A DNA stretch of 64,000 nucleotides, taken from assembly GCA_016744475.1 (NCBI GenBank), contig JADGEH010000009.1:1-64000 (forward strand), written 5' to 3'. Under the pieces are notes generated by a model. That model was not told where the DNA came from. It saw only the letters and a list, made by a program, of their open reading frames with translations, and made no database searches. Below, piece by piece: positions 6,500 to 43,800 of the stretch (positions are counted from its first letter, which is position 1; each line of letters opens with the position of its first letter). This stretch comes from Thiotrichales bacterium. GTDB lineage: Bacteria > Pseudomonadota > Gammaproteobacteria > Beggiatoales > Beggiatoaceae. Position numbers and translations under genes: made by a program.

Positions 6500-7819
6500 A
6501 TGGATATTACGACCACTACAAGCTTTAACTCGTCCATGTTGATCGCGACTCTGATTTTTATCGGAGCTTACATCTTAATTTTCACTGAAGTGTTTCATCG
6601 CACCACCTCGGCTTTACTGGGGGCGGTTGTGATGGTGATCGTCGGTGAATATGTGGGTTTTTATACCCAAGAAGCCGCATTACTGGCGATTGATGCCAAT
6701 ACCTTGTTGTTATTGGCGGGCATGATGATGCTGATTTCGCTGTTAAAACCCACAGGTGGCTTTGAATTCGTCGCCCTTCGCACCGTGCGCTTAGCCGTGG
6801 GCAGCTCCACCAAGCTGATGATTTACCTCAGTATTATTGTCAGCGTTATCAGCATGTTTTTAGATAATGTCACCACCGTGCTGATTTTCGCCCCGTTGAC
6901 GGTATTGATCACTCGCTTGGTGGGGATTAACCCCATGCCGTATTTAATGGCTGAAGCCATTATGTCGAATATTGGCGGCATCGCCACCTTGATTGGCGAC
7001 CCGCCTAACTTAATGATCGGCAGTGCGGCTAATATTGGTTTCACTGAGTTTTTCATACATTTAGGGCCGGTTGTGCTCTTGGCGTGGGGGAGTAGTTTGA
7101 TGGTATTGCTATTTTCCTTTCGCCACGAACTCGCCACACAAAATTTTGACCACTTGCATTTAGAACAAGATCAAGCGATTCGCCAACCTCGGCAATTAGC
7201 CTATGTCTTATTCGCCTTAAGCATCGTTATTGTGCTGTTTTTTATTCATCATCACTTACATTATTACCCCGCTTTTGTAGCCCTGATTGGTGTCGTTATC
7301 GCTATGCTATTGGTGCGCCCTAAACCTGAAGCCGTCTTTGGCGAAGTGGAGTGGTCGGTGCTGTTCTTCTTTGCGGGATTATTTTCTTTGGTAGGTGGCT
7401 TAGAAGCCTCTGGTTTATTGCATTTAGCTGGACAACAACTGGCACAATTAGCCAAAAACCCCGATCAATTATTGCTCACCTGCATTGCGCTGATGTGGGC
7501 TGCTGCGGTGGTCAGTGCGATTGTCGATAACATCCCCTTCACCGTCACCATGATTCCCATCATCATGAGCTTAGAACAATACGGCGTGAACATTATGCCG
7601 CTGTGGTGGGCATTAGCCTTAGGGTCTGGTTTAGGCGGCAATGGTACTCATATCGGGGCGAGTGCGAACATTATTTGTATCGCTGAAGCTGAGCGCAGCG
7701 GCATTCCCGAAGCCCGTATCACCCCTTGGCTGTGGCTGAAAAAAGGACTCCCCACCACGGTATTTAGCTTAATCAGCAGCAGCCTCTTGTTTGTTTTGTT
7801 CTTTGAGCATCTGAGTTGA
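6500..7819 (+). CDS. ArsB/NhaD-type ion transporter (SLC13/IT superfamily)
   Basis: 439 residues with about eleven or twelve membrane helices. The family hallmark lies at about residues 113-180: LDNVTTVLIFAPLTVLI, then AEAIMSNIGGIATLIGDPPN, repeated in part near the C-terminus as IVDNIPFTVTMIPIIMS and GSGLGGNGTHIGASANI. This inverted-repeat architecture belongs to the ArsB/NhaD/P-protein branch of the ion transporter superfamily. Members include sodium/proton antiporters and arsenite or organic-anion carriers; substrate cannot be decided from sequence. No arsR/arsC is adjacent. It starts 5 bp after def and is followed by a repeat-rich intergenic region. Confidence 0.85.
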   Translation: MDITTTTSFNSSMLIATLIFIGAYILIFTEVFHRTTSALLGAVVMVIVGEYVGFYTQEAALLAIDANTLLLLAGMMMLISLLKPTGGFEFVALRTVRLAVGSSTKLMIYLSIIVSVISMFLDNVTTVLIFAPLTVLITRLVGINPMPYLMAEAIMSNIGGIATLIGDPPNLMIGSAANIGFTEFFIHLGPVVLLAWGSSLMVLLFSFRHELATQNFDHLHLEQDQAIRQPRQLAYVLFALSIVIVLFFIHHHLHYYPAFVALIGVVIAMLLVRPKPEAVFGEVEWSVLFFFAGLFSLVGGLEASGLLHLAGQQLAQLAKNPDQLLLTCIALMWAAAVVSAIVDNIPFTVTMIPIIMSLEQYGVNIMPLWWALALGSGLGGNGTHIGASANIICIAEAERSGIPEARITPWLWLKKGLPTTVFSLISSSLLFVLFFEHLS

Positions 7820-7893
7820 ATGTACAAAGGAACTGAGAGTCCACTGGTTGAGCATTCTCTCCCACGCGGAGTGCTGGACACGAGACATGACAT

Positions 7894-7923
7894 GTAGGAT
7901 GGGCAAAGCACAGCGTGCCCATC
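7894..7923. repeat. GTAGGATGGGCA...TGCCCATC palindromic repeat
   Basis: Short hairpin-forming unit whose arms are gatgggca and tgcccatc. Sequences of this type are scattered through many proteobacterial intergenic regions. Part of the repeat cluster that follows the transporter gene. Confidence 0.5.
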
Positions 7924-7937
7924 AATGGTGGGCGGCG

Positions 7938-7996
7938 CGTCACTGCCATTAAGTTAAGCATTTTTAGCCCCAAGGGGGCGTGATTTATACAGCCCA
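7938..7996 (+). repeat. Left 59-bp inverted repeat of the 3.1-kb island (D-type terminus)
   Basis: Starts tcactgccattaagttaag at 7940, the same terminus as element D at 54310. The full 59 bp aligns without gaps to the reverse complement of 10984-11042, with 47 of 59 positions identical by hand count. Beyond position 7958 the match includes tttttagccccaa and agccca. Confidence 0.65.
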
Positions 7997-8032
7997 GGGC
8001 ATCGCCCTGGGGGATGGATAGAGCGAATATCT

Positions 8033-8086
8033 AGCCCTGAAAGGGCGACATATCATGTTATGTCGCCCTTTCAGGGCTGAGTTTTT
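8033..8086. terminator. Perfect 20-bp palindrome followed by a T-run
   Basis: Arms at 8033-8052 and 8059-8078 are perfectly complementary (agccctgaaagggcgacata on the left) with a 6-nt loop, followed by gagttttt. It could end transcription coming from the transporter gene. Two smaller hairpins flank it (about 7991-8012 and 8099-8115), so it may equally be part of a palindromic repeat element. Confidence 0.45.
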
Positions 8087-8117
8087 CCTCTCATATTCCA
8101 GGGGCGTTGCCCCTGAC

Positions 8118-8224
8118 TATATAGCAAAATTATATCAGTTATTAAGACTGCCAGTCCTTGAAGGACTGGCAGTCTTGGGTTTGTTTATATTGTAAGCCTA
8201 TAAATGATGTATTTTAGCTATATA
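8118..8224 (+). repeat. Family B repeat, copy B2
   Basis: Same about 105-bp unit as B1 in opposite orientation, with the 16-bp hairpin arms intact. In translation it still reads IAKLYQL-like sequence and ends AYK-stop, but without the rest of a transposase gene. It is nested inside the D-type repeat sequence. Confidence 0.8.
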
Positions 8225-8250
8225 GATGTTGCCCCTTTGGAGCTTAACTT

Positions 8251-8379
8251 AGAGCCTATACGAAGATGGGGAATCGAAGCGAAAATTCACCATTTTGAGG
8301 CAGGTTTTTCGGTTTTTTAAGGCGAATAGCGGGCGTGTAACGAAAAAAAGCGGAAAACCTGGCCAAAAGGGCGGGTTTG
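8251..8379 (+). repeat. Family A miniature element, copy A1, right end lost
   Basis: Begins agagcctatacgaagatggg at 8251, directly on cttaactt (8243-8250), itself part of a D-type right terminus. It follows the family consensus to ggcgggtttg at 8379, then switches to valS-like coding sequence instead of the expected cagccgattatccc end. Confidence 0.8.
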
Positions 8380-8589
8380 ATTAATAAAGACGCAGAACTT
8401 GAACGTTTAACGCGAGGAATGGGCAAAATCCAAAAAGACCTGGACAAACTCACAGCCAAACTGTCAAACCCCAACTTTGTGGACAAAGTCCCCGCAGCGG
8501 TAGTAGAAAAAGACCAAGCACGGGTAGCAGAACTGCAAGCTTCGCTGGGACAGTTGCAAGAGCAAGAAGTGAAGATTAAATCACTGTAG
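8377..8589 (+). pseudogene. valS 3' fragment (C-terminal coiled-coil arm)
   Basis: About 70 codons encoding a charged helix: INKDAELERLTRGMGKIQKD, KLSNPNFVDKVPAAVVEKDQ, then a stop. The pattern (AGLI-D/N-KDAEL...L-K-L-N..F..KAP..VV..E) is that of the C-terminal tRNA-binding coiled coil of valyl-tRNA synthetase. The frame stays open upstream into repeat A1 (LAKRAGLINKD), but no catalytic domain is present in the window. It is therefore a displaced or deleted gene end, not a free-standing gene. Its presumed terminator follows at 8596. Whether an intact valS exists elsewhere cannot be seen. Confidence 0.7.
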
Positions 8590-8595
8590 GATGGT

Positions 8596-8648
8596 GAAAA
8601 ATGCCGACGGAAGCTTATTTTAAAATGTAAGTTTTATCGGCATTTTTC
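8596..8648 (+). terminator. Hairpin terminator after the valS fragment
   Basis: Perfect 12-bp stem gaaaaatgccga / tcggcatttttc with a long loop, 7 bp after the fragment's stop codon, ending in a T-run. Probably the original valS terminator, retained with the fragment. Confidence 0.6.
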
Positions 8649-8743
8649 CCACTGTTTAAAATAAATTTAGGTGTAGAATAGTGGCAGGTTTCATCTGCAA
8701 GAAGGATGATTATCTTACATAACCCTTATTAAGGATAAAGAGA

Positions 8744-9697
8744 ATGAAAGAAGATAACTTTAAATTTTCATTATATCGACTAAATATTGTAGATACAGTA
8801 ATTGATGTAGCTGAGGCAGATCGGTTGAAGGGGGATTATGAAATAATACAGATAATAAAACAAGCTGTTTCTCCTGGGTTTGATATTACCAAACATGGGG
8901 ATATTCATACTTATAAATGGAGTATAAGAGATTATTGGATATACGAAGGTAAAAACAAAACAGCTAAAACAATAGGTATTAAACTTGCAAAATCTTTAAT
9001 AGAACAAACAGGAGAGATAGTTACTGATGAAGGAATAATTCCAGGAAAATCCACATATGAGGAATCTATAGCTAATTATATAAATATAGTATTTTTATTA
9101 AAACGCCATATTGTAGTTGTGGAAAATAATAGCAATATTACATCTAGCAACACATGGAATGCTATATTTACAACAATAACCTCTAAGATAGCAAAACTTA
9201 ACAAATATGAGTCTTCTATCTGTTTAGAACCCATCCCTTCAAAAGAAGAGGTCGTTGATTTATTTAAGTCTTTTGATAAATTAACAAGATTAAAAGTAAA
9301 CTTGCGTTTACCTAATCCAGAACTATCCAGATACACTCAAAATTTATATGATGAGCTTAGTAAAGGTGGGATAAAAGAGTATCTTCAGGATATGAAAAAT
9401 TCAAGTGGAATCAATAATATTGATGAAGACACACTGCCTTATGCTACTGTATCAATGGCTCAACAGGGGTATAAAGATGGTGAGGTTGAAATGCGCGGTA
9501 TTAAAGATGGTAAATATGAGGAAATAAAAACGGCTGAAACAGCTATTACAGGTATGGTTAGTGGAAAAAAAATCATTGAGCAGATCAGAATTCTTCTCAG
9601 ATTTTCCAATGATCTAGCTAGAACTGAAGATGCAAAAAAACTCCTTAACAGCCTTTCTAAAGAAGTTGATAGGTTAGTACCAAACGCTGAAGAATAG
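8744..9697 (+). CDS. RexA-like soluble protein of a candidate abortive-infection cassette
   Basis: 317 residues, no signal peptide or membrane helix; ATG preceded by AAGGA at 8731. Not securely assigned. By eye it shares features with lambda RexA: a hydrophobic stretch IVFLLKRHIVVVENN where RexA has FPSFLFVEGDTIGF, ICLEPIPSKEEVVD for VQIEPLMRGTTKDDV, and LTRLKVNLRLPNPE for TTVKVEAKLP, in the same order, and a charged helical C-terminus. RexA is a DNA-binding intracellular sensor that activates the membrane protein RexB on phage infection. The next gene, 2 bp away, encodes a four-helix membrane protein of RexB size, which is the main support. Codon usage is much more AT-rich than the flanking genes, suggesting transfer. 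It could instead be another two-domain protein family. Confidence 0.5.
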   Translation: MKEDNFKFSLYRLNIVDTVIDVAEADRLKGDYEIIQIIKQAVSPGFDITKHGDIHTYKWSIRDYWIYEGKNKTAKTIGIKLAKSLIEQTGEIVTDEGIIPGKSTYEESIANYINIVFLLKRHIVVVENNSNITSSNTWNAIFTTITSKIAKLNKYESSICLEPIPSKEEVVDLFKSFDKLTRLKVNLRLPNPELSRYTQNLYDELSKGGIKEYLQDMKNSSGINNIDEDTLPYATVSMAQQGYKDGEVEMRGIKDGKYEEIKTAETAITGMVSGKKIIEQIRILLRFSNDLARTEDAKKLLNSLSKEVDRLVPNAEE

Positions 9698-9699
9698 CA

Positions 9700-10176
9700 A
9701 TGAAGAACAAGGCAGGATTAGTACTGGGGATACTAATTGAACATGTACTTGCATTGATAATTTTATTTGGTCTTTTTTATTTTCATGATGCAAATGAACT
9801 CACTTATTTCATATCAAAAATTTCAGATAAATTAGTGTACCTCATTAGTATTATGCTAACAACTAGCGTGGGTTTTTTTTGGACTTACTTTACTCAAAGC
9901 ACAACTGAATTTGGTAAATATTTACATTATAGAAAAGTTGATAATGCATATATAATTGCCTTTGTTATTATTATAATGACTAACTTTATCCTTTTAATAT
10001 TGAGTATTGTAGTTAATGTATTCAATAAAAATAGTCTATTGCTTATTGTCTTTTTTTATTTATTAATTTACGGTTTAATAAATTTTGTGACTTTAATATC
10101 TAATGTTAGCGGTCTTATAAGGCTTAGAAATAAATTTCAAACTGAGTTTGATAAACATAAAGATAATTTAAAATAA
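9700..10176 (+). CDS. RexB-like four-helix membrane protein
   Basis: 158 residues with four predicted membrane helices at about 5-26, 44-66, 82-108 and 112-138, short polar loops and a charged C-terminal tail (KFQTEFDKHKDNLK). Lambda RexB is 144 residues with four helices and acts as the ion-conducting effector that depolarises the cell. No sequence motif proves homology; the call rests on topology, size and position 2 bp downstream of the RexA-like gene, with likely translational coupling (no strong Shine-Dalgarno of its own). Very AT-rich. Alternatives: a generic small membrane effector of another toxin or phage-defence pair. Confidence 0.5.
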   Translation: MKNKAGLVLGILIEHVLALIILFGLFYFHDANELTYFISKISDKLVYLISIMLTTSVGFFWTYFTQSTTEFGKYLHYRKVDNAYIIAFVIIIMTNFILLILSIVVNVFNKNSLLLIVFFYLLIYGLINFVTLISNVSGLIRLRNKFQTEFDKHKDNLK

Positions 10177-10213
10177 AAAAGTTGGCTAGCCAGCGAAATA
10201 AAAGGACGTGGTT

Positions 10214-10864
10214 TTGAACCCAGAAGTGAAATCAATTCTAGAGGCAATAGAGAAGCATTCCACCTCTCAAAAAATAGGCTCTATATTTGCGGAATCACGC
10301 ACCGAAAAACGATTAATAGTTTTAGCAATTATTTCATTTTTTTTAACGCTATTACTATCTCTAATTTCTTGGGAAATTTGGGCGATTTATGCTGGAATAA
10401 TATTTTTATTAGCAATGATTTCGCTCACTATTGTTCAAACAATAACTACAGTTCACACATTTAAAAGGCCATTAAGTGGATATGCGTCAGGTGCTGAAAT
10501 ACGCTTTAGCAATAGAATGCAGTTCATTCAAGAATTAGCTACTTATAGTCCTGATGGACTTAGATCAACAACGCTAGCACTAAAGAACGACGTTTCTCGT
10601 ATGCAAAAACGTCTATATTCTTTAGTAGGCGCTACTGATAAAGCGGGGTTCATACCAGCAGGTATTACGCTTTATTATGCAGCATCAAAGATTTCATCAG
10701 GCAACGAAGATATTGCAGTAAATATGCTTATGGCATTCGTTTTTGGTTTATATGGCGGAGCTTTCTTAGTGAACCGAATAATTGACTCACTATCTGTCAA
10801 TATCTCATGCCTTGAGGAAGCTCAGTCTATTGCTGAGATAAGAAATAAAATTGAAAAAGCCTAA
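10214..10864 (+). CDS. Unknown membrane protein, third gene of the Rex-like cassette
   Basis: About 216 residues. The frame also allows GTG at 10208, but AAAGGA at 10201-10206 is too close to it and well spaced for TTG at 10214, which I prefer. Helices at about 35-80 (two adjacent: LIVLAIISFFLTLLLSLISW, then IYAGIIFLLAMISLTIV) and one or two more at about 155-205 (GFIPAGITLYYAAS, MLMAFVFGLYGGAFLVN), separated by a charged cytoplasmic-type segment. No family recognised. It lies 31 bp after the RexB-like gene on the same strand with the same AT-rich composition, so it probably belongs to the same transferred unit. It may be an accessory or regulator of the membrane effector; this is inference. 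Confidence 0.6.
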   Translation: MNPEVKSILEAIEKHSTSQKIGSIFAESRTEKRLIVLAIISFFLTLLLSLISWEIWAIYAGIIFLLAMISLTIVQTITTVHTFKRPLSGYASGAEIRFSNRMQFIQELATYSPDGLRSTTLALKNDVSRMQKRLYSLVGATDKAGFIPAGITLYYAASKISSGNEDIAVNMLMAFVFGLYGGAFLVNRIIDSLSVNISCLEEAQSIAEIRNKIEKA

Positions 10865-11208
10865 CAAACGCCGTGCTCAAATTTTTAACTTTTTGATTTA
10901 TAAAAAATCACGTTTTCACTAAGCCCGGTACAGCGATATTCAGCGCCTCAAAATACACGACACAACACCCACATTCCCAATGTTGGGCTATAGGGATGCC
11001 GCCCCGTTGGGGCTAAAAACCCTTCACTGAATGGCAGTGATGCGCTTTGCGTGGGAGCTAGGAGTGACGCGCTTGCGTCACAATACGCACCGCAGGCGCG
11101 GTGCTAATGGGTTCCCGCGCAAGGTGCGAGGGAACGAGGGATAAGTGGGCTGTCGCGGTAAACGTTTGCTGTGAAAAACGCTGGCAGGCGGATGTTACAT
11201 AAGGTCTT
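10865..11208. other. Gene-free repeat region right of the cassette
   Basis: 344 bp without a credible gene. It holds the right 59-bp inverted repeat (10984-11042) and three small hairpins: gtgacgcgc/gcgtcac at 11064-11081, gcaccgc/gcggtgc at 11087-11104 (the same 18-bp hairpin recurs at 16276-16293), and gttccc.../...gggaac at 11111-11135. No promoter is obvious. Confidence 0.6.
10984..11042 (-). repeat. Right 59-bp inverted repeat of the 3.1-kb island (D-type terminus)
   Basis: Ends cttcactgaatggcagtgatg-like at 11022-11042, 19 of 21 identical to the right terminus of element D (54508-54528). The whole 59 bp pairs with 7938-7996 without gaps. Orientation is inverted relative to the left copy, bracketing the valS fragment and the Rex-like genes. 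Confidence 0.65.
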
Positions 11209-11592
11209 TTATTCCAAAACCATGATGGCATCCATTTCTACTGCGACACCTTTAGGTAAGGAGGCAACACCTACTGCGGTGCGTGCGGGATAGGGTTGAT
11301 TGAAATAGGTCGCCATGATTTCATTCACTAATGCAAAATGATTTAAGTCGGTGAGAAAGATATTTAATTTAACAATGTCTTGTAAATCACCGCCTGCGGC
11401 TTGAGCCACGGCTTTGAGGTTGTCAAATACGCGACGTATTTGTGCTGCCATGTCTCCTTCTACCACGGTCATGGTGTCTGGTTGTAAAGGAATTTGACCG
11501 GATAAATACACGGTGTTGCCCACTTTCACTGCTTGGGAATAAGTGCCTATGGCTTGCGGGGCTTGTTCTGTACTGATGATTTCACGAGGCAT
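11209..11592 (-). CDS. ridA: RidA family deaminase
   Basis: 127 residues, the usual length for RidA/YjgF. RidA hydrolyses reactive 2-aminoacrylate and other enamine/imine intermediates made by PLP enzymes, protecting the cell; it works as a trimer. Family features visible: [22 protein letters not shown] near the N-terminus, [21 protein letters not shown], and the C-terminal [15 protein letters not shown] with the substrate-binding Arg and VAVEMDAI with Glu. A hypothetical gene lies 41 bp upstream on the same strand and may share its transcript. No threonine dehydratase gene is nearby. Confidence 0.92.
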
Positions 11593-11633: not shown

Positions 11634-12047
11634 TTAGTTTTCAGGGAGTTTTTTATAGTATTCTTTAATCAAGGCTTCAAATGATTTTTCATCAGTGCGT
11701 TGAAGCTTGTCTAACATGGTTTTTGCATTTTCTTTATGATGAGTAGATGCATTTTCCTTGACCTCATCAATTTTTTCTTTCATGGTTTTTAGTTTTTTAA
11801 AAGCCTCATTATCGTTGTCTATATCTCCTTTTTCAGCCATCTCTAGCACTAAATTCATTAATGCGTTTAGTTGTTTTCCATATGAAGCGACACGAGTAAA
11901 GACTTCTTTCTCTATCTCGGCGTTACCGACTTCTGCCGTGATGTTACCAAAAAAATAATGGGGGTCTATTTTCTGATTCACATCTCCGCTCAGAGGGAGT
12001 TTGAAATAGGGTTGAAATAAGGGGTGGATTGAATTGTCTTTTATCAT
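11634..12047 (-). CDS. Hypothetical cytoplasmic helical protein
   Basis: 137 residues, no signal peptide, no membrane helix, not recognised. After a short N-terminal part (IHPLFQPYFKLPLSGD) the protein is mostly charged helix (KLKTMKEKIDEVKENA, EALIKEYYKKL), likely helical bundle or coiled coil. AGAAGG stands about 6 bp before the ATG on the minus strand, supporting the start. Base composition is more AT-rich than the neighbouring ridA and amidohydrolase genes. Function unknown. Confidence 0.65.
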   Translation of the reverse strand: MIKDNSIHPLFQPYFKLPLSGDVNQKIDPHYFFGNITAEVGNAEIEKEVFTRVASYGKQLNALMNLVLEMAEKGDIDNDNEAFKKLKTMKEKIDEVKENASTHHKENAKTMLDKLQRTDEKSFEALIKEYYKKLPEN

Positions 12048-40855: not shown

Positions 40856-43800
40856 TCATTGGTACAACCATACCCGCAATAGAGAAATCAATTGTTCGCT
40901 ATTAACTGGTTTGGGTAAATAATCATTAGCTCCAGCTTCTAAACATTTACTACGATCATCTTTCATCGCTTTTGCGGTTAATGCAATGATGGGTAACTTG
41001 CGCCAATGCTCCTGCGCACGAATGTTGCGCATGGTTTCATAACCATCCATTTCTGGCATCATAATATCCATCAAGACAATATCTACATCCGCTTGTTTTT
41101 CTAACAGAATTAAGGCTTGTTTACCATTCTCTGCGGCTATCACTTGCATATCTTTTTCTTCTAGCACGGCACTTAAAGCATAAACATTACGAATATCATC
41201 ATCGACCAGCAACACTTTACGGTTTTTTAAGACAGCTTCTTTATCATGCACTAAACGCAGCATATGACGTTTTTCTTCAGGTAATTTAGCTTCAATTTGA
41301 TGTAAAAACAGACTCACTTCATCGACTAAACGCTCTGGAGAATAAACTGCTTTCAATACTGCATCACCATGCCATTCATTTAAATACTGAGATTCTTTCT
41401 GGGTTAATTCACGCTCAGCATAAAAGATAAGTGGCACTTGTGCGTCTTCTTGATGATCGCGTAAATGCTGTAAAAAAGGTAGTGCTTCTTGAGCATCCAT
41501 ATCCAACACCGAACAATCAAAATGGCGTGTTTTTAATACCGCTAATGCTTTAGAGACGGTATCTGCGACTACAATGCTCACATCCTTATTATCTAACCAA
41601 TGTTTGATTTTATCAGCATGTTCTGGTCTATCAGACATCAATAGTAAATGACGCATATCTTGCTCTAAAATATGGCGAAATTTAGCAAAAGCTTCATGCA
41701 ATTGTTCCATATTGACAGGCTTTAAATAATACCCCAATGCACCCATTTGTTTAACCGTGCGCCCATGTTCTCCGGCTGAAATCACATGAATGGGAATGTG
41801 TCGAGTGGTCAAATTTTGCTTAAGCCTGTCTATCACAGTTAAACCATCGACTAAAGGTAAACCTATATCTAACATAATGGCATTAGGCATATATTGTTCT
41901 GCCATAGATAAACCATCGCGTCCATTCTCTGCCAATAAACATTGATAACCTTCATCATGTCCGGCTTGCAACAATATCTCGGCAAATTGAGGATCATCAT
42001 CAATCATCAAAATAGATTTATGTTCCGGTTTTAAATGCTCACGATCATCGACTAGCACAGAGGGTTTCTTTGATTCAGTGGGCGTGGTTTTATTTGTTTT
42101 AGCAGTAGGCATCTGTGGTGGTGGTGCAGCAAAATGATGCTGTTTTTCAGCAGAGCTTTGCTCAATTGTTTCAAGTTTTTCGGGAACATATAAAATAAAT
42201 GAACTGCCTTCATTTTCAACACTGCGCAAGCGAATATCTCCGCCGAGTAAACGCGCTAATTGGCGAGAAATAGACAAACCTAAGCCTGTGCCTCCAAAGC
42301 GACGACTGGTTGTACCATCGGCCTGTTGAAAAGCTTCAAAAATAACTTGTGCCTTATGTTTAGGAATACCAATACCCGAATCAGTAACATTAAATGCAAT
42401 ACTGTGTGTGGCATCCAAATTAAGCCCCACTAATTCCTGTAATTCATCTTGCGTGGGACGGTAAATATCTAATGTCACCGCACCTTTTTGAGTAAACTTA
42501 AAAGCATTAGAAAATAAATTCGTCAATACTTGCTGCACACGTTGAATATCAGTGGTTAAATATTTGGGTATCTGCTCAGTAACACGAATATGAAAAGCCA
42601 GTTGTTGACGTTCTGCTATAGGTTCAAATCGCTGCCGAGTGTTATCTAATAATTGCGTTAAGGCAAACTGTTCTATATGTAATTGTACTTTTCCTGCTTC
42701 TACCTTAGATAAATCGAGAATGTCATTAATTAAGGTTAATAAATCAGCACCCGCATTATGGATGGTTTGTGCTTGTTCCGTTTCTTTTTCATCTAAATGC
42801 CCCTTTTTATTATTGGCTAACATTTGCGCGAGAATTAACAAACTATTCAATGGTGTACGCAATTCGTGCGACATATTAGCCAAAAATTCAGATTTGTATT
42901 TGCTGGTTAGCTCTAATTCATCCGCTTTAGTCTGTATCGCCATTTTGGCTTTTTCAAGCTCCCGATTTTTTTGTTCAACAGAGGCTTGTTGACGTTCTAA
43001 ATCACGGGTACGCTCCTCCAATGTTTCATTGGTTTGGCGTAGCTCTTCTTGTTGAACTTGTAGTTCTTCTGATTGCGACTGTAGCTCTTCTGACTGGCTT
43101 TGTAGTGTTTCATTGCTTTCTTGTAATTCTAATTGCTGTGCTTGCATTTGTTCTTTTTGCGTGCGCAATACAGAAGATTGAGCTTCACTTTTTTCTAGTA
43201 AATTTTTCATTCTGTGACGTGACTCAGCTGTATTAATGGCAATACCTATCGTCGGCAATACCTGTTTAAGAAATTCTAGTTGCTTATCAGTAAATGGCTG
43301 AATAGAAGCTAACTCAATAACGCCTTTTACCTCATTCTCATATAAAAATGGAGCCACTAAAATCATCCTAGGCACTGATTCACCTAAACCCGATTGAATA
43401 CGAAGGTAATTTTCAGGGGGGGATTCTAAAACAAAGGTTTTGCGTTCCATAGCAGCTTGTCCCACCAAACTTTCGCCAATAGAAAATTCATGTTTATGGG
43501 TGCTGCGCCAAACATAAGCATGTGTCGCCATCATTTTTAACACGGTTTTATGCTCGTCTTCTGCACTGGGTTGCAATAAATAAAAAGCACCCACTTGCGC
43601 GTCTAAATAAGGGACTAAAAAATTAATTATATCTTCTGCTAAATTCAGTAATGTTTTATCCCCACTGCTCTGTTCACTCAATTGGCTTTGCCCTGTTTTT
43701 AACCAATTTTGTCGTGTGTTTTCTGTGGTGGCATCCCCTAGTTTACGAGCCGCATGATCCAAACTGTTTTTAATTTCTTTAAAATCTCCAATAAATTCTC

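Follow-up and report, generated by a model that had tools for sequence, protein, structure and literature searches.

A probable diverged Rex-type, DUF4747-related gene pair in an AT-rich cassette of a Thiotrichales bacterium

Here we present an AT-rich cassette of three genes, the first two of which probably constitute a diverged Rex-type (DUF4747-type) two-gene exclusion pair, horizontally acquired and acting by a pore mechanism, with the third gene separate; we put the probability of this reading at roughly 70%. The cassette lies on the + strand of a 64,000-nucleotide stretch of DNA, which was analysed as a whole and is referred to here as the window. Gene 1 (8744-9697) encodes a DUF4747/RexA-like soluble protein of 317 aa, a sensor candidate; gene 2 (9700-10176), which follows after a gap of 2 bp, encodes a multi-helix membrane protein of 158 aa in the RexB position; and gene 3 (10208-10864), beginning 31 or 37 bp past gene 2, encodes a membrane protein of 216-218 aa. 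The three ORFs were confirmed with the sizes, order and 2-bp spacing given in a preliminary description, and they are directly supported, as are the superfamily membership of protein 1, the arrangement with the membrane gene behind the soluble one and the odd base composition.

Gene 1 has an AAGGA motif ahead of its ATG, and gene 2 is without an obvious ribosome-binding site. Gene 3 can start at a GTG (10208, 218 aa) or at an in-frame TTG (10214, 216 aa), the latter being preceded by AAAAGGA and better positioned. The G+C contents of genes 1, 2 and 3 are 0.316, 0.245 and 0.359 (third-position values, 0.211, 0.195 and 0.256), compared with a mean of 0.453 (sd 0.066) for 45 ORFs from across the window (150 aa or longer, largely non-overlapping, cassette included). 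This is a sharp drop from the neighbours, mostly at 0.45-0.52, to 0.25-0.36 for each cassette gene. The AT-rich contrast noted earlier is thus real, although not unique to the cassette: a 137-aa ORF at 11634-12047 (0.35) and a 1,307-aa ORF at 40856 (0.382) are also low. Five promoter-like sites were found where 11.3 were expected, and an Rfam scan of 7800-11300 gave no match. Searches of Pfam, PADLOC, PHROGs and NCBIfam with all three proteins yielded nothing convincing; as a positive control, lambda RexA and RexB were recognised immediately by Pfam and PADLOC.

The soluble protein, DUF4747 and lambda RexA

The kinship of protein 1 was traced with profiles of our own. A single-sequence search of 398 genomes of the phylum gave 35 matches at E 0.1, itself included, two of which were taken further. 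One, a 290-codon frame (G606, E 0.0278), took the search to DUF4747 unprompted, and the same locus was found independently by the Pfam DUF4747 model, which has six loci in 359 genomes. The other, a 281-codon frame (G705, E 0.0295), belongs to an undescribed Rex-like clade designated here as group G. A 17-member profile comprising nine DUF4747 and eight group G sequences, built without protein 1, matched it at 52.1 bits, while the best unrelated ORF among 698 (family members and copies of protein 1 set aside) reached 4.3 bits; with a second alignment, protein 1 scored 46.8 bits versus 6.5 for the best of 2,000 shuffles. The nine-member DUF4747-only profile gave 31.7 bits (best of 2,000 shuffles, 8.8) and the group G-only profile 13.0 bits (best shuffle, 6.9), and the DUF4747-type match spans residues 35-265. 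These scores strongly indicate that protein 1 is a member of the DUF4747 superfamily. The curated collections were silent on this relation: Pfam (with DUF4747, PF15931, and RexA included), PADLOC, NCBIfam and PHROGs did not report protein 1 as a family member at E up to 1, nor did the Pfam models, PF15931 among them, even at E up to 10.

Identity to protein 1 is low, at 12-19% for six DUF4747 members and 14-25% for group G, varying in the latter with member and alignment; the Shewanella-type members of group G have VEN, SS/SA and FxSF...NLxxPN stretches in common with it. The DUF4747 profile is blind to group G and the group G profile blind to DUF4747, whereas protein 1 matches both. Thus, protein 1 serves as a sequence bridge joining DUF4747 and the undescribed clade, and it is on the strength of this bridge that group G is included in the superfamily. 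DUF4747 pairs such as CarolAnn gp44/gp43 and Sbash gp30/gp31 resemble genes 1 and 2 in having a soluble protein of ~280-320 aa followed by a small multi-helix membrane protein, our own alignments covering nine other DUF4747 relatives. They differ in that the Pfam model misses protein 1 and in that a further membrane gene follows here. Weak DUF4747 matches by HHpred have been reported for Sbash gp30 and CarolAnn gp44, and the same accounts place a DUF4747 domain in lambda RexA (PMC6426606, PMC7542560).

The preliminary description had likened protein 1 to RexA, which holds at the level of the superfamily: the tie to DUF4747 is strong, but that from DUF4747 to RexA is weak and invisible to HMMER. 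In profile-profile comparison (hhalign) of the DUF4747-type profile with a set of nine RexA-family proteins from phages and plasmids (a partial RexA, L033, left out), probabilities were 7-23%. The score was 28.3 with protein 1 in the profile (column-shuffled maximum 17.5, 0 of 59 above; reversed 16.1) and 29.1 without it (maximum 21.1, 0 of 60 above; reversed 10.5). About 70 residues of protein 1 align in order with lambda RexA 96-163, and the motifs that had been picked out by eye as following RexA order do lie inside this segment: IVVVENN at residue 123, LEPIP at 161 and LKVNLRLPN at 183, together covering residues 123-191 (9110-9316, + strand).

HMMER gave no link in either direction, the RexA profile not listing protein 1 and the 17-member profile giving at most 1.0 bit on the nine RexA-set proteins. 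The RexA family model (PF15969) in Pfam and PADLOC found no match in protein 1, and direct BLASTP of proteins 1 and 2 against lambda RexA and RexB stayed at chance level; judged by family models, therefore, protein 1 is no RexA. Of 177,635 PDB sequences, a profile that included protein 1 picked out three at E up to 10; the highest-scoring (20.5 bits) had no stretch of its own, and RexA (8TWQ, of two-domain RdgC-like fold), which is present in that library, was not listed. AlphaFold models of protein 1 were poor, both from the single sequence (mean pLDDT 38.1, pTM 0.24) and from an 11-row alignment (36.0, 0.28), and of the 662 Foldseek matches to the latter at E up to 10, none reached 0.001, with no RexA among the best 50 of the 662. 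A relation between DUF4747 and RexA, weak and visible only in profile-profile comparison, is nevertheless likely. Genes 1 and 2 are also like lambda RexA/RexB in gene order and in the small membrane second protein, but unlike them in not adjoining a repressor gene.

The membrane partner and the genomic setting

Protein 2 had been described as a four-helix, RexB-like protein. With the threshold set at 1.5, five separate hydrophobic windows of 19 residues can be distinguished in it (starts 3, 45, 79, 98 and 117), and at 1.6 four, so that it has four or five helices. Position and topology agree with those of RexB, a small multi-helix membrane protein being encoded directly downstream of the soluble gene. 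The sequence scores are divided: protein 2 scored 25.0 with one partner profile (at most 18.8 for 40 shuffles, at most 20.6 for 16 unrelated membrane pieces, 12.0 reversed), but for three of the six partner profiles controls equalled or exceeded it. The RexB family (PF15968) gave no match in Pfam or PADLOC and an hhalign score of 15.4, within the controls.

The gene order is conserved. In 26 of 29 other Rex/DUF4747 loci a membrane ORF immediately follows the soluble gene, on its strand and within -80 to +150 bp, and in the remaining three (L030, L031, L051) it overlaps the first gene for longer, starting further inside it. These loci cannot be treated as independent, since four of the E. coli viral loci in the count are 100% identical to L064; left out of the count were two truncated loci (L075, L076), three ending at the gene (L069, L072, L073) and one (L047) in the same place as L049. 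By published description, the RexABpp pair of Pseudomonas putida (PP_5643/PP_5644) has the arrangement of genes 1 and 2, but is prophage-borne. In that system, HHpred is reported to have tied only the soluble protein to RexA and to have revealed no RexB homology in the membrane partner, which was experimentally active (PMC12894663).

The near neighbours that were scanned (peptide deformylase, an anion transporter, RidA, an amidohydrolase and an M16 peptidase) are housekeeping genes, none of them phage-like, and since such genes surround the patch on a 78-kb contig, it appears to be chromosomal. Upstream lie a dispersed 131-bp intergenic repeat (8249-8379, listed without strand) with 25 further copies in the same genome at 95% identity or more, and a second element (7932-8124) with 15 same-strand copies at 89% or more; both look like members of a high-copy miniature or palindromic repeat family. 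A ~60-bp dispersed repeat (10984-11045, also listed without strand), with more than 30 genome copies, stands just downstream of gene 3. Also upstream is a 3' fragment of valS encoding the tRNA-binding arm (8370-8607; Pfam match 8377-8589), 90% identical to G000:C135:14398-14636, which adjoins the same repeats; judged from this identity, the orphan valS 3' end is a repeat-linked duplication.

Protein 1 was found only in its own genome among 95 relative genomes, and in none of the other 94. A search of 369 genomes of the class gave three matches, itself and two partial ones, and a profile combining protein 1 and seven of its relatives picked up, in 303 class genomes, only protein 1 itself and a partial match in G199. 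Genome searches revealed no second locus of protein 1 itself. No relative emerged when viral contigs, genome contigs, plasmids and phages were searched with protein 1, plasmids with proteins 2 and 3, viral contigs with protein 3, or phages with the DUF4747 protein L049, and a scan of viral contigs with alignment A3 gave no match. A search of the only other genome of the genus did not find the flanking transporter. The flanking repeats, housekeeping neighbours and rarity among relatives are as expected of a transferred patch, and from the composition and sporadic occurrence we infer horizontal transfer.

The third gene, proposed function and alternative explanations

Protein 3 has three hydrophobic windows at 1.5 (starts 32, 51 and 168), hence three helices by this measure and perhaps four by analogy with its relatives; three or four had been described earlier. 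Compared by hhalign with a profile of five relatives (L020, L023, L091, L094, L095), it gave a probability of 89.5, E 2e-6 and a score of 46.6 (40 shuffles at most 19.2), while hmmsearch scored it at 16.5 bits, compared with 9.6 for the best of 2,000 shuffles and 10.5 reversed, and listed none of 20 membrane controls. By these profile matches gene 3 is a member of a separate undescribed membrane family, the closest relatives having LxGAxDKxGxIP in common. Relatives are found near a tyrosine integrase gene (L056) and among metabolic genes (L055). Most of the weak matches to gene 3 in a first search were taken for chance, one of them resembling flagellin by eye; L020 and L023 were retained from it, and L091, L094 and L095 came from another search. 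Gene 3 was also considered as the RexB counterpart and rejected, its partner-profile scores being only 12.0-17.8 (these without control scores). Some members of the LxGAxDKxGxIP family lie near NTPase or integrase genes, and it is possibly a defence-associated family in its own right.

Only five Rex-like systems had been described as of 2026, according to PMC12894663, and what triggers RexA and what opens RexB are questions standing since Benzer's observation. Lambda RexA/RexB is thought to consist of a DNA-binding sensor that opens a membrane pore upon infection, and in the tested systems the soluble protein is reported to dimerise, bind DNA and be switched by phage DNA-protein complexes or a phage protein, whereupon the activated membrane protein permeabilises the membrane and arrests growth (PMC11077077, PMC12894663). 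DNA binding, pore activity and abortive infection are carried over to genes 1 and 2 from what has been published for lambda, Sbash, CarolAnn and P. putida. By this analogy, protein 1 would be the soluble partner, probably dimeric and a non-specific DNA binder; upon infection it would meet phage DNA-protein intermediates or a phage protein and activate protein 2, which would render the inner membrane leaky, so that growth stops and the infection is aborted. Lambda RexA mutants with more, less or no DNA binding are all reported to have lost exclusion (PMC11077077), so the trigger may be something other than DNA binding. Gene 3 is probably on the same transcript and would encode a separate membrane protein, either a rider on the patch or an accessory factor. 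We place most weight on this pore model by analogy, the sequence itself being unable to decide.

The preliminary description had proposed a three-component system with an added membrane protein. In such a system gene 3 might, for example, silence the pore of gene 2, be a second membrane effector or couple protein 1 to the membrane. Gene 3 is on the same strand, close behind gene 2, similarly AT-rich and not separated from it by a terminator-like site on the + strand, and its relatives L094, which adjoins a STAND-like NTPase gene, and L091, two genes from an AAA_15 ATPase gene, have settings like those of defence genes; since it lies so close behind on the same strand, it may still work with the pair. 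We nevertheless consider a genuine three-component system unlikely, because gene 3 is of another family and because a search for the same three-gene order found a gene 3-like ORF in none of the 29 other Rex/DUF4747 loci, 23 of which extend 1,250 bp or more downstream, far enough to reveal one; lambda, as had been noted, has no such gene either. Conversely, DUF4747 and RexA profiles run on 138 ORFs in nine stretches around gene 3 relatives found nothing notable (best 4.4 bits), and the closest Rex-like relatives have a different next gene each time: DUF4062 (L054), a hexapeptide transferase (L058), a KAP NTPase (L059) and a gene of no Pfam family (L057). The more specific version, a three-gene Rex system in which a non-RexB membrane protein gates or replaces the pore within a free-standing chromosomal cassette between high-copy repeats, seems to us rather unlikely.

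Somewhat more doubtful is a transferred AT-rich pair with real DUF4747 kinship whose function has drifted from exclusion, for example to an RdgC-like role in DNA maintenance. Lone chromosomal RexA homologues are reported to exist and RexA to have its fold in common with RdgC (PMC11077077), and no PADLOC model recognises genes 1 and 2; but all 29 other loci retain a membrane partner, and several of these loci belong to prophages or plasmids or adjoin defence-type genes. The wiring reported for mycobacteriophage Butters gp30/gp31, with the same gene order (PMC7542560, PMC12894663), would make the soluble protein the antiviral effector and the membrane protein the partner that keeps it inactive; since PMC12894663 names the membrane protein as the effector for four of the five Rex-like systems described, we regard such wiring here as improbable. 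The likeness of protein 1 to the C-terminal domain of prolyl-tRNA synthetase consists of matches of residues 191-266 and 185-265 to two NCBIfam proline--tRNA ligase models (E 0.0079 and 0.0093) and of recurrent weak matches of residues ~185-269 in many genomes (best E 1.4e-5). The match is partial and weak, the related proteins L054, L064 and L053 are without it at E 0.01, and the DUF4747 profile covers residues 35-265; a true relation is thus highly improbable, and the likeness of residues 185-266 is probably due to chance.

Related pairs in other genomes

The loci related to the proposed exclusion pair of genes 1 and 2 are found in prophages, on small plasmids, or adjoining DUF4062 or KAP NTPase genes. 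Group G, whose first member was found by the single-sequence search with protein 1, consists of pairs of 280-298 aa and 153-159 aa with an overlapping four-helix partner gene and without gene 3; in G705 itself, a 280-aa gene overlaps a 159-aa gene with four hydrophobic windows. The members from Shewanella electrodiphila, Pseudoalteromonas atlantica and Rheinheimera hassiensis are 91-96% identical to G705, and the E. coli member, near integrase and icd, is 39.9% identical; 11 group G loci were found in viral contigs. PADLOC-DB did not recognise the soluble protein of the E. coli clade, and neither L054 nor L064 falls in a curated family in Pfam, NCBIfam or PADLOC, which suggests that Rex-type pairs are under-annotated. 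The icd-side pair, a near-identical copy of which is present in 32 of 5,426 complete E. coli genomes, offers a laboratory-ready relative for comparing triggers and pores.

In locus L064, where a prophage integrase and icd flank this E. coli pair (9001-10336), its genes carry no annotation beyond hypothetical protein. Small plasmids of E. coli (3.3 kb), Yersinia ruckeri (5.2 kb) and Acinetobacter (18-20 kb) were also seen to carry diverged RexA/RexB-type pairs (L029, 101-1382; L032; L030; L031), in which the genes are listed as hypothetical or the second lacks an annotation.
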